IMG/VR virus record: IMGVR_UViG_3300035182_002586
Location: 248,001 to 312,000 of that record
Origin: a virus
Strand: one strand, 5' to 3'
Length of the DNA: 64,000 nucleotides
In this document: in pieces, positions 36,645-54,457 of the stretch
Numbering within the stretch: position 1 is the first letter of the stretch
How the letters are laid out: every line of letters starts with the position of its first letter
Translations under genes and position numbers: made by a program
Notes under the pieces: model-generated
Databases searched by the model: none
What the model saw: only the letters and a program-made list of their open reading frames with translations
What the model was told of the DNA's origin: nothing

Positions 36645-36980
36645 CTACTGAACGCCGTCCTTGAGCGCCTTGACCGGCGTGGCCTTCACCTTCGTGGAGG
36701 CCGGCTTCGCCGCGATCTTGATCGGCTGCTTCGTGAACGGGTTCACGCCGTCCCGCGCGGGAGTCGCGGCCTTGTGGACCGCCTTGAGGCGGAGCAGGCC
36801 GGGGAGGACGACGACGCCCGGGCCCTTCGGACCCAACTCGCCACGCACGATGTCGGCGATGGCCGAGAGCGTCTGCTCGATGCTCGCCTTCGAGGTGCCG
36901 AGCTTCTCGGCGATCTCGCCGACGAACGCGCTCTTGGTCATGGGCTTCTTGGTGGGCGCCTTGCTGTTCTTGCTGGCCAT
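36645..36980 (-). CDS. hup: HU-family DNA-binding protein
   Basis: 111 residues. The N-terminal helices read MTKSAFVGEIAEKLGTSKAS, preceded by a Lys-rich extension (MASKNSKAPTKKP). The beta-arm region contains ARDGVNPFTKQPIKIAAKPA, the R-x-G-x-N-P-x-T signature of HU/IHF, followed by KATPVKALKD. The length is slightly above the usual 90-99. It would bend or compact phage DNA. Start at ATG 36980 with AAGGACC upstream. A GGTGTAG motif lies 67 bases upstream and a terminator hairpin lies downstream, so it is probably a single-gene unit. Confidence 0.92.
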   Translation of the reverse strand: MASKNSKAPTKKPMTKSAFVGEIAEKLGTSKASIEQTLSAIADIVRGELGPKGPGVVVLPGLLRLKAVHKAATPARDGVNPFTKQPIKIAAKPASTKVKATPVKALKDGVQ

Positions 36981-37973: not shown

Positions 37974-37999
37974 CCCCCCTCGGTGTAAGAGGGGGGTCA
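37971..37999 (+). promoter_or_regulatory. 11-bp inverted repeat spanning stop and start codons, with GGTGTA in the loop
   Basis: TGACCCCCCTC (37971-37981) is perfectly complementary to GAGGGGGGTCA (37989-37999), with the 7-base loop GGTGTAA. The left arm contains the stop of the upstream gene; the last base of the right arm is the A of the GT51 ATG. In a read-through transcript the start would be at the base of a very stable hairpin. If GGTGTAA is a promoter, a transcript starting after it would lack the left arm and be free to translate. Confidence 0.7.
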
Positions 38000-39696
38000 T
38001 GGAAGCAACCAAGAAATCCCGTCGTCCCCGATGGTCGGTCGTTCTAGGTACCGTCGCGGGAGTGGTCGCCGTTGCTCTTGTCGTGGCCTGGTTCGTCGCA
38101 CCTGTGATGGTGCGACGCTACGTGGAGCAGCACTACAAGGGGGTCCACATCCAAGGCGGGGTGACCCTATCGTTCCGTGGTGTCGCACTCCACGGGGTCG
38201 AGATCGACAGGGAGGGGGTCAAAGCACAGCTACCCCTCGTGCGTGTGCTCCCGGATGAGAGCGTCGTCGTAGAGGGCGGGACGGCTACCCTCACCCTGAC
38301 GGAAAAGCCAGGGGGCGGTAACAGCGACACGAAGAGACGGGTCGTGGGGTGGTTGGATGCGGCCACGGTCGTGCAGGGGGACGTCAAGGGGACTGCCACG
38401 AAGGTCACGTTCGACGACTTTCGCGTCTGCGCCGAGAAGGTGGAGGCGCAGCACCCAAAGGGTTCGGTGTCTGGTGCCACCGTCTGCGTGAGGAAAGACC
38501 GCACGCTCGTCACGGCCGAGGCGCTGACGGCCACACCGAGCTTCAAGCTCCCCTACATCGACAAGCTGCCGGCCCCGACCCCCAAGGACATCACCGTCAC
38601 TGGCGTCGAGTTCAAACCGAAAGAGCCGAGCGTATCGGTCAAGACGGCCACCTTTGGGCCGGTGTCGGTCAAGTCCGGGTACGCAGCGATCAAGTCCGCG
38701 ACCGTGTATCTCATGGGGGACGTGACTCTGGACCTGGCGGTTCTGCACACGGGGCCGATCACGTTGAAGGACGTGAGCACCAAGATCCCTGTGGCGGATC
38801 TGGCGAACCTGACGAAGATCCCGGTTCAGATCGGCCCCGCTCGGGTGGTGATCAGCCCGGGGGACATGTCCCTCGAAGGGGATGCGAAGTGCCAGGCGTG
38901 GGTCGATGCGTTGCCCACGGAGCTGCGTACGGGCCCCCTTGCCACGATGCGCCTGGAGGGGTCCTTGTCCTTCACAGTCGCCGTGAAGCCCCCCACGCCC
39001 ACGTTCAAGATGAAGGCGGACTGCCACGCCTCGTGTGAGGGGTTCAAGCCTCTGTCGGGGAAGTTCACCTACACGGCCTACGATGCTGACGGAAAGGAGT
39101 TCGTGCGCACGACGGGTCCGGGCACGAAGGACTGGACCCCGATCGGCGAAGTGAGCGCCACGCTTCCGGCCGCCGTGATGTCGACGGAAGACCCCGGGTT
39201 CCTCGGGCACAAGGGGGTCATCCCCGAGGCCATCGAGAACTCGCTGCGGGACGACCTCAAGGCCGACCGCTTCGTGCGCGGGGGCTCCACCATCACGATG
39301 CAGCTCGTGAAGAACGTCTGGCTCCGACGGACCAAGACGCTTGGACGCAAGACCCAAGAGGTCCTGCTGTCGCTCGCGATCGAGTCGTGTCTGTCGAAAG
39401 ACGTGATCATGGAGACGTACCTGAACGTCGTCGAGTTCGGCCCCAATCTCTACGGGGTGGGGCCCGCGTCGCAGCACTACTTCGGAGAAGCTGCGATGAC
39501 TCTCGACCCTGTGCGGTCGTACTACCTGGCTTCGATCCTCCCCGCCCCTCGAAAGGCTCCGCCCCCGAACACCGAGACCTTGGAGCGCATTCGCTCGCTG
39601 ATGATCCGTGTGTCGAAAGAGAGTGGACAGCTCTCGGACACGTTCGGAGCACCTAGCCCTCAGGACGAAGAGGGGTGGGTCGTCAACAAGCCGTAG
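37999..39696 (+). CDS. Membrane-anchored monofunctional peptidoglycan glycosyltransferase (GT51) with AsmA-like N-terminal region
   Basis: 565 residues: a basic N-terminus, one membrane helix at about 15-37 (VVLGTVAGVVAVALVVAWFV), a beta-rich region of about 340 residues resembling AsmA-type domains, then a GT51 domain from about 390. The key motifs are all present: EDPGFLGHKG (catalytic Glu at about 397), GGSTITMQLVKN, RKTQEVLLSLAIE, and METYLNVVEFG with the second Glu. It would polymerise lipid II into glycan strands outside the inner membrane. No transpeptidase domain. Phages normally encode enzymes that cut peptidoglycan, so a complete synthase is striking. Confidence 0.9.
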   Translation: MEATKKSRRPRWSVVLGTVAGVVAVALVVAWFVAPVMVRRYVEQHYKGVHIQGGVTLSFRGVALHGVEIDREGVKAQLPLVRVLPDESVVVEGGTATLTLTEKPGGGNSDTKRRVVGWLDAATVVQGDVKGTATKVTFDDFRVCAEKVEAQHPKGSVSGATVCVRKDRTLVTAEALTATPSFKLPYIDKLPAPTPKDITVTGVEFKPKEPSVSVKTATFGPVSVKSGYAAIKSATVYLMGDVTLDLAVLHTGPITLKDVSTKIPVADLANLTKIPVQIGPARVVISPGDMSLEGDAKCQAWVDALPTELRTGPLATMRLEGSLSFTVAVKPPTPTFKMKADCHASCEGFKPLSGKFTYTAYDADGKEFVRTTGPGTKDWTPIGEVSATLPAAVMSTEDPGFLGHKGVIPEAIENSLRDDLKADRFVRGGSTITMQLVKNVWLRRTKTLGRKTQEVLLSLAIESCLSKDVIMETYLNVVEFGPNLYGVGPASQHYFGEAAMTLDPVRSYYLASILPAPRKAPPPNTETLERIRSLMIRVSKESGQLSDTFGAPSPQDEEGWVVNKP

Positions 39697-40618: not shown

Positions 40619-40626
40619 GCTGACGT

Positions 40627-40633
40627 GGTGTAT
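40627..40633 (+). promoter_or_regulatory. GGTGTAT motif before bL12
   Basis: GGTGTAT lies 29 bases before the bL12 ATG, right after the stop of the upstream gene. A good Shine-Dalgarno (CCGGAGG) follows at 40648-40654. This is a copy with a normal leader. Confidence 0.55.
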
Positions 40634-40662
40634 ACCTCCGAGTCCACCGGAGGCACCACGCC

Positions 40663-41049
40663 ATGTCGAACGTCAACACGGATCAGATCGCAGAACAGCT
40701 CGGCCAGCTCTCCGTCATGGAGCTGATTGGCCTCACAAAGAAGCTGGAGACCGCCTGGGGCGTTTCGGCGGCGCCTGCCGTCAACCTGGCCCCGCCGACC
40801 CCGTTGCCGGGCACCCCGGTCGTCGCAGAGCAGACGGAGTTCGAGGTCGCCCTCACGGGCCTCGCCGCCCCGGACAAGAAGATCTCGGTCATCAAGGTCA
40901 TCCGGGAAGTCACGGGCCTCGGCCTCAAGGAGGCGAAGGACCTCGTGGAAGCCCTCCCGAAGACCGTGAAGGAAGGCATCGCGAAGGCGGAGGCGGAAGA
41001 CCTCACGAAGAAGCTGCGTGAGGCCGGCGCCACGGTCGAGATGAAGTGA
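40663..41049 (+). CDS. rplL: Ribosomal protein bL12 (L7/L12), full length
   Basis: 128 residues in the host bL12 layout. The N-terminal dimerisation domain (about 1-34: [20 protein letters not shown]) is followed by an Ala/Pro hinge (about 35-55) and a C-terminal factor-binding domain with [20 protein letters not shown] and [18 protein letters not shown]. The conserved Lys-Ile-x-Val-Ile-Lys and Gly-Leu-Gly-Leu-Lys-Glu-Ala-Lys elements are intact. It would join the ribosomal stalk and recruit translation factors. It has its own GGTGTAT motif and Shine-Dalgarno. Phage-encoded bL12 is known from environmental viruses but remains rare. Confidence 0.95.
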
Positions 41050-41089: not shown

Positions 41090-42043
41090 ATGACGGACAT
41101 CAAACACGCAGTCTCCATCGACCAGTTCGACAACCCCTCGATCGAGAGGTTGTTCCTACGAGCCAGGACTCTTCGGGACGCCGACGTGCAGGCGAGCAGC
41201 CTCGCGGGCAAGGTCCTCGCCTGCCTCTTCTACGAGCCCTCGACCCGCACCTCGTCCAGCTTCATCGCTGCGATGACTCGGGCCGGGGGCTCGGTCATTC
41301 CGATCACTCAAGGGGTGCAGTTCTCCAGCGTCTCGAAGGGCGAGACGCTGGAAGACACGATCGTCACCCTCGGTCAGTACGCCGATGCGATCGTTCTTCG
41401 TCACCCGGAGGTGGGCGCAGCCGCACGGGCGGCCGCTGTCTCCCCGGTCCCGGTCATCAACGCCGGAGACGGTGCCGGAGAACACCCGACGCAGGCGCTC
41501 CTGGACCTCTTCACAATCCAAGAGGAGTGTGGCGGCCGCCTCGACGAGCTGAACGTGACGTTCGTGGGCGACCTTGCGCACGGCCGTACGGTGCACTCGC
41601 TGGCGAAGCTCCTCGCACGGCACAACACGAAGATCAACCTCGTCTCCCCCTTCCTTCTCCGCCTCAACCGGATCGGGGATGACGACCCTACCTACCGGGC
41701 CGTCAAGCATCGGATCGGACGGGAGCGCACCGTCAAGAACGGGCTCCACGAGGCGCAGGACATCCTGAACGATTCGGATGTCATCTACATGACGAGGGTG
41801 CAGAGGGAGCGCTTCACGTACGCGGAAGGGTACGCGGAGGTGAAGGACTCCTGCCTGCTCACGGACGAGATCGTCGCGGGGCTGAAACCTCGTGCGCGCA
41901 TCCTCCACCCGTTCCCGCGCGTGAACGAGATCCCGACCACCATCGACAAGGACCCTCGCGCGGCCTACTTCCGGCAGATTCGCAACGGGCTGTGGGTCCG
42001 GATGGCCCTTCTCGAAAGCGTCATCCTCGGGAGGACGCCGTGA
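41090..42043 (+). CDS. pyrB: Aspartate carbamoyltransferase catalytic chain
   Basis: 317 residues, matching the ~310 of bacterial PyrB. The carbamoyl-phosphate motif FYEPSTRT is at about 48-54. SKGETLEDT, RHPE and EHPTQALLDLFTI (His at about 132) follow. GDLAHGRTVHSL, RVQRERF and the C-terminal HPFPRVNEI complete the set, so the enzyme looks active. It makes N-carbamoyl-aspartate, the committed step of pyrimidine synthesis. The regulatory chain PyrI is absent, which would free it from CTP control. The stop overlaps a GTG that begins an abandoned copy of the dNMP kinase start. Confidence 0.93.
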   Translation: MTDIKHAVSIDQFDNPSIERLFLRARTLRDADVQASSLAGKVLACLFYEPSTRTSSSFIAAMTRAGGSVIPITQGVQFSSVSKGETLEDTIVTLGQYADAIVLRHPEVGAAARAAAVSPVPVINAGDGAGEHPTQALLDLFTIQEECGGRLDELNVTFVGDLAHGRTVHSLAKLLARHNTKINLVSPFLLRLNRIGDDDPTYRAVKHRIGRERTVKNGLHEAQDILNDSDVIYMTRVQRERFTYAEGYAEVKDSCLLTDEIVAGLKPRARILHPFPRVNEIPTTIDKDPRAAYFRQIRNGLWVRMALLESVILGRTP

Positions 42044-54226: not shown

Positions 54227-54457
54227 ATGCCCGCTGCGAAGAAGACCACCGCCAAGAAGACCACCGCCAAGAAGACCACCGCCAAGAAGGCCCCCGCGAA
54301 GAAGGCCGCCCGCAAGACCACCGCGAAGAAGGCCCCCGCGCGCAAGACCGCGGCCAAGAAGGCGCCGGCCAAGAAGGCCGCGCGCAAGCCCGCCGCCAAG
54401 AAGGCCGCGCGCAAGCCCGCCGCCAAGAAGACGGTCGTGGCGCCCCCGGCGATCTGA
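54227..54457 (+). CDS. Histone H1-like AKK-repeat DNA-binding protein
   Basis: 76 residues made of Ala-Lys-Lys repeats (AKKTTAKKTTAKKTTAKK, AKKAARKPAAKKAARKPAAK), like the tail of histone H1 and bacterial H1-like proteins such as HctB or AlgP. It carries a large positive charge and is expected to bind DNA without sequence specificity. It has a strong Shine-Dalgarno (AAGGAGA) and a clear terminator, so it is probably highly expressed alone. It complements the HU gene in compaction or exclusion of proteins from phage DNA. Confidence 0.9.
   Translation: MPAAKKTTAKKTTAKKTTAKKAPAKKAARKTTAKKAPARKTAAKKAPAKKAARKPAAKKAARKPAAKKTVVAPPAI

Follow-up and report, generated by a model that had tools for sequence, protein, structure and literature searches.

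A complete bL12 ribosomal stalk gene in the translation kit of a 529-kb phage

Can a virus put a stalk of its own on the ribosomes of its host, in place of the stalk by which these recruit factors? Most of the viral bL12-like ORFs that we collected have no recognisable docking domain, and how they could serve as stalk proteins is puzzling. The bL12 described here and that of a related 363-kb phage are complete enough to ask the question directly. The gene lies in a window of 64,000 nucleotides, positions 248001-312000 of a virus record of 528,957 bases (529 kb). The features of the locus are given in Table 1.

Table 1. Features of the bL12 locus (nucleotide positions in the window, residues in the protein).
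Feature	Position	Strand	Remarks
bL12 gene	40663..41049	+	ATG to TGA, 128 aa
N-terminal dimerisation/uL10-binding domain of bL12	residues 6-44
Hinge of bL12	residues about 45-55
C-terminal factor-binding domain of bL12	residues about 56-128
Loop end before the helix with K65 (K73 here)	40870..40881	+	codons 70-73 (A-P-D-K) or immediate neighbours
Shine-Dalgarno GGAGG	40649..40653	+	9 nt before bL12 ATG (-14 to -10)
GGTGTA promoter-like motif of the phage clade	40627..40632	+	at -36 of bL12
Predicted RNA hairpin	40621..40668	+	40621-40631 with 40658-40668 (including AUG); 40635-40640 with 40648-40653 (including Shine-Dalgarno)
PyrB, aspartate carbamoyltransferase-like (next gene)	41090..42043	+	PF02729 2.3e-44, PF00185 7.1e-26

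The bL12 gene and its protein

The preliminary description had read the gene as a full-length bL12, and this was confirmed. The ORF is exact, and both domains are detected by Pfam above the cut-off: the N-terminal dimerisation and uL10-binding domain (Ribosomal_L12_N, PF16320, residues 6-44, E = 1.9e-12) and the C-terminal factor-binding domain (Ribosomal_L12, PF00542, residues 60-128 on the full model 1-67, E = 4.9e-27). The phmmer alignment with the full-length bL12 of solved ribosomes runs over nearly the whole protein, from residues 4-6 to 128 (E down to 3e-27), and by these scores the match to the ribosomal chains is far above chance. Dimerisation and uL10 binding on the ribosome are thus predicted for the phage protein.

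We read the residues that contact translation factors from an alignment with the E. coli chain in 3j7z. None has been lost: K65, I69, K70, R73, L80, E82, and K84 (E. coli numbering) are conserved in the phage protein as K73, I77, K78, R81, L88, E90, and K92. In an alignment of 24 bacterial and viral copies, five of these positions are invariant (K73, K78, L88, E90, and K92) and the other two nearly so. Changes at K65 and K70 of bL12 are known to weaken the binding of EF-Tu (PMC10602876).

The single place where the protein departs from the bacterial panel is the loop before K65, which is one to two residues longer and is the longest among the copies compared. The distance from the Phe of the C-terminal domain to the V-I-K motif is 16, vs 14 in 65 of 80 bacterial copies and 15 in another 12. 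The longer loop could alter factor binding. The bL12 of the 363-kb phage aligns without the insertion, so the two copies do not have the long loop in common.

The phage genome and its translation genes

By its gene content, the contig is a genuine tailed phage (Caudoviricetes). PHROG searches of the record identified the major head protein (phrog_2522, 3.9e-53), the large terminase (phrog_2, 4.5e-10), and a phage DNA polymerase. The terminase was detected by PHROG, whereas Pfam models gave one sub-threshold match and otherwise none. A head maturation protease is also encoded, and matches to a tail lysozyme and a lytic tail protein lie within the window. A search of the 528,957 bases with the 16S rRNA model only (RF00177) gave no match, nor did the whole record match uL10, translational GTPases of the EF-Tu/EF-G type, or bS21.

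The phage protein has the two-domain architecture, the factor-binding residues, and the length of bacterial bL12 (L7/L12, rplL), from which it differs by the longer loop, the lack of a uL10 partner gene, and a location outside the rplKAJL-rpoB operon. At least one of rplK, rplA, rplJ, and rpoB adjoins bL12 in all 80 nearest bacterial copies, but this context was found neither in this phage nor in any of the 41 viral loci of a first scan. It is a trait of cellular copies and no requirement of the family. The phage hallmark genes, the lack of detectable 16S rRNA and uL10, and this context led us to reject bacterial contamination. Nothing was found in favour of a bacterial contig with this gene as the rplL of a host, a reading whose probability is close to negligible, and the attribution to a phage in the preliminary description stands.

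Among the few families tested, bL12 is the sole ribosomal protein found in the record. The rest of the translation genes are numerous. The region at 120-178 kb (L131-L133) carries a tmRNA, with the tag ANDNGTVITALKAAA, and 52 tRNAs whose sense anticodons cover all 20 amino acids. An isolated predicted tRNA with a TTA anticodon (UAA, ochre) is found at L131:3254-3328. The record also encodes ArgRS, peptide deformylase, a tRNA-binding domain, a SpoU-type methylase, and GroEL. Together with bL12, the tRNAs, tmRNA, ArgRS, and peptide deformylase mark a phage that supplies much of its own translation kit. Given the phage hallmark and translation genes, without detectable 16S rRNA, uL10, or GTPases, bL12 is a phage gene within this large kit. 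Since no uL10 was detected in the record, any stalk made from the phage protein would have to use the uL10 of the host.

PyrB, encoded by the next gene, is a neighbour of bL12 and no part of its function. A dihydroorotase-like amidohydrolase is encoded elsewhere in the record (L126:2041-3066), and with the two the phage would have a partial pyrimidine pathway. Other genes of the window include a GT51 peptidoglycan glycosyltransferase (37999-39696, +; PF00912, E = 1.9e-43), which has a membrane helix and the motifs EDPGFLGHKG and GGSTITMQLVKN; here a phage encodes an enzyme that builds cell wall. They also include an HU-family protein (36645-36980, -) and a histone H1-like protein consisting of Lys/Ala/Thr repeats (54227-54457, +).

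Viral relatives and origin

Gathering viral ORFs by similarity to this protein gave at least 101 distinct bL12-type ORFs. Both domains are present in 23 of them, and 78 of 101 lack a recognisable N-terminal domain; as the collection was seeded by this bL12, it may overstate how common two-domain copies are. The copy studied here has the best N-terminal and the second-best C-terminal score of the 101. Viral bL12 had been called documented but uncommon in the preliminary description. The first term is correct, with reports from 2019 and 2020, and the second must be qualified in view of the at least 101 viral ORFs with the C-terminal domain.

Phage bL12 was reported by Mizuno 2019 (Nat Commun 10:752, PMC6375957), who recovered a peptide of one viral bL12 together with E. 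coli ribosomes, although ribosomes carrying the tagged viral protein could not be purified. As here, the genes belonged to phages, the factor contacts were conserved, and replacement of the host protein was proposed. Their cultivated examples come from genomes under 80 kb and have bL12 domains that stand alone or form part of larger proteins, whereas the present copy has a docking domain and comes from a 529-kb genome. L7/L12 within large translation kits was then reported in huge phages (Al-Shayeb 2020, Nature 578:425, PMC7162821). Among these, the copy of the 735-kb LR756501 also has two domains, but it is 34% identical to ours and does not join it in the tree. The jumbo cyanophage PhiMa05 also has ribosomal proteins, six in number, and their list does not include bL12 (Meza-Padilla et al. 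2026, PMC13157829), whereas bL12 stands alone in our phage among the few families tested. We found nothing on bL12 in jumbo or huge phages beyond these three papers. Viral bL12 is thus already known, and the copy of this phage is unusually complete; what is new is the count of 23 two-domain copies among 101 and the best N-terminal score of this one.

We located related phages using their AAA ATPase (26 records, mostly 49%-61% identity). Only one of these records, which may be fragments, has a second two-domain bL12. This is the 363-kb phage, whose protein is about 55% identical to ours and has its likelier start at an internal ATG after AAGGAGG. Two further relatives have divergent or C-terminal-only bL12, one of them with two ORFs, and the other related records have no bL12 in the available sequence. 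A conserved bL12 neighbourhood was considered and rejected: in the 363-kb phage, bL12 has an HNH gene next to it and GroEL nearby, and PyrB is not its neighbour. At least two bL12-type ORFs each were observed in the huge phages LR756511.1 (L177-L179) and IMGVR 3300036766_000988 (L182, L183); in L183, an N-terminal-like helix region is retained and the GLGLKEAK motif is lost.

Within the clade bL12 is patchily distributed, and its locus differs between the two phages, which would suit a recently captured passenger gene without function. Several observations argue against this scenario, which we regard as very improbable. The closest match to the phage protein, the bL12 of Minicystis rosea, is 58% identical, and all bacterial copies are at or below about 60%. 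Both domains and the contact residues are intact, the codon score is typical of the phage, and a phage-type motif lies upstream. Finally, dN is lower than dS in viral bL12, with ratios of about 0.1-0.3 in close pairs and 0.37 between this copy and that of the 363-kb relative.

These two copies also pair in the tree (support 92/95). Its well-supported branches require the label to switch between bacterial and viral at least three times, an indication that bL12 entered viruses on several separate occasions. The preliminary description had proposed that the phylogeny of bL12 would name the host lineage, but the tree names no host. It does not show the phage protein grouping with Myxococcota, yet such a grouping is not rejected either (p-AU 0.40). 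The best matches of GroEL include Polyangiaceae-type genomes among several near-equal ones at about 48%-50%, and PyrB is too distant for host inference (about 35%-42% for the longer matches).

Role at the ribosome and start-site signals

Taken together, domain content and genomic setting make it likely that the phage bL12 is a dimeric stalk subunit that binds host uL10, as one component of the larger phage translation kit. The N-terminal helices would hold the dimer together, and the dimer would exchange with host bL12 at the C-terminal helix of the uL10 of the host. The mobile C-terminal domains would then bring in the host factors IF2, EF-Tu, EF-G, and RF3 and assist them in hydrolysing GTP. 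For the phage, the likely benefit would be that elongation on host ribosomes is kept up, or slightly retuned, in late infection, together with the work of its own tRNAs, tmRNA, ArgRS, and peptide deformylase. That the protein replaces host bL12 in ribosomes, as raised in the preliminary description, is plausible, the uL10-binding domain being present. A role off the ribosome, with the free protein acting as a decoy for translation GTPases or capturing uL10 and, for example, disturbing the rplJL feedback of the host, seems quite improbable for this copy. Such an off-stalk role is likely for many of its viral relatives, given the 78 ORFs without a recognisable N-terminal domain, but a factor decoy would not need docking, and here the docking domain is kept and has the best score among the viral copies.

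The Shine-Dalgarno previously noted before the gene was found again. The gene had also been credited with a motif of its own, which holds if GGTGTA was meant: of the 605 called genes, 154 have this hexamer in the 100 nt before their start, vs a mean of 14.6 for its 60 permutations. The bL12 copy is atypical in position, the usual one being -14 to -21 (before 109 of 608 genes). Related phages (L150-L174, L184-L188) show an enrichment of GGTGTA of about 10-20 fold in the interval -22..-9, which was not seen in small samples of two unrelated huge phages. A second start-site motif of the record, GATGGATC at about -35..-39 followed by TGTA, precedes about 44 genes. Both motifs look like promoters with very short leaders, a role that for GGTGTA we infer from its position and frequency. 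Genes with GGTGTA close to the start less often have a Shine-Dalgarno (19% vs 53%), and the phage messages may therefore differ from those of the host.

This difference, with the long loop before K65, is in keeping with a specialised or inhibitory stalk, which would enter host ribosomes and, through an altered factor face, change the choice or speed of factors, lowering host output or favouring phage initiation. A precedent for lower output is viral bS21, with which translation in vitro fell to about 5% (Mizuno 2019, PMC6375957). We nevertheless consider this alternative unlikely: every factor-contact residue tested is conserved, and the copy of the 363-kb relative has no insertion. Moreover, bL12 does not itself read mRNA, and it brings factors to all elongating ribosomes alike. 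The bias towards phage messages suggested in the preliminary description is thus unsupported, and nothing here indicates message selectivity.

The start of bL12 lies in a predicted leader hairpin (MFE -26.4 kcal/mol, z = -3.08), equalled by 1 of 200 shuffles. It ranks 20th among 609 gene starts by MFE and 12th by lowest accessibility of the AUG. The hairpin begins upstream of GGTGTA, so a transcript initiated at this motif would lose the outer stem, and the fold from GGTGTA onward is weak (z = -0.50). By analogy with gene e of T4, the predicted hairpin could silence read-through transcripts. If the phage bL12 is a working stalk subunit, its output might be set in this way, with Shine-Dalgarno and AUG masked on read-through transcripts and the hairpin broken in those that start at GGTGTA. 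One can also imagine that the long-loop protein on host uL10 retunes the recruitment of IF2 or EF-Tu to favour short-leader, Shine-Dalgarno-poor phage messages, with the hairpin opening only on transcripts from phage promoters; we rate this combination as distinctly improbable. Across the genome, there is a modest tendency of GGTGTA sites to sit in hairpins (z below -2 in 11% vs 4%; Mann-Whitney p = 0.002 on z). The ATG of the GT51 gene likewise lies within a strong hairpin, whose loop contains GGTGTA.
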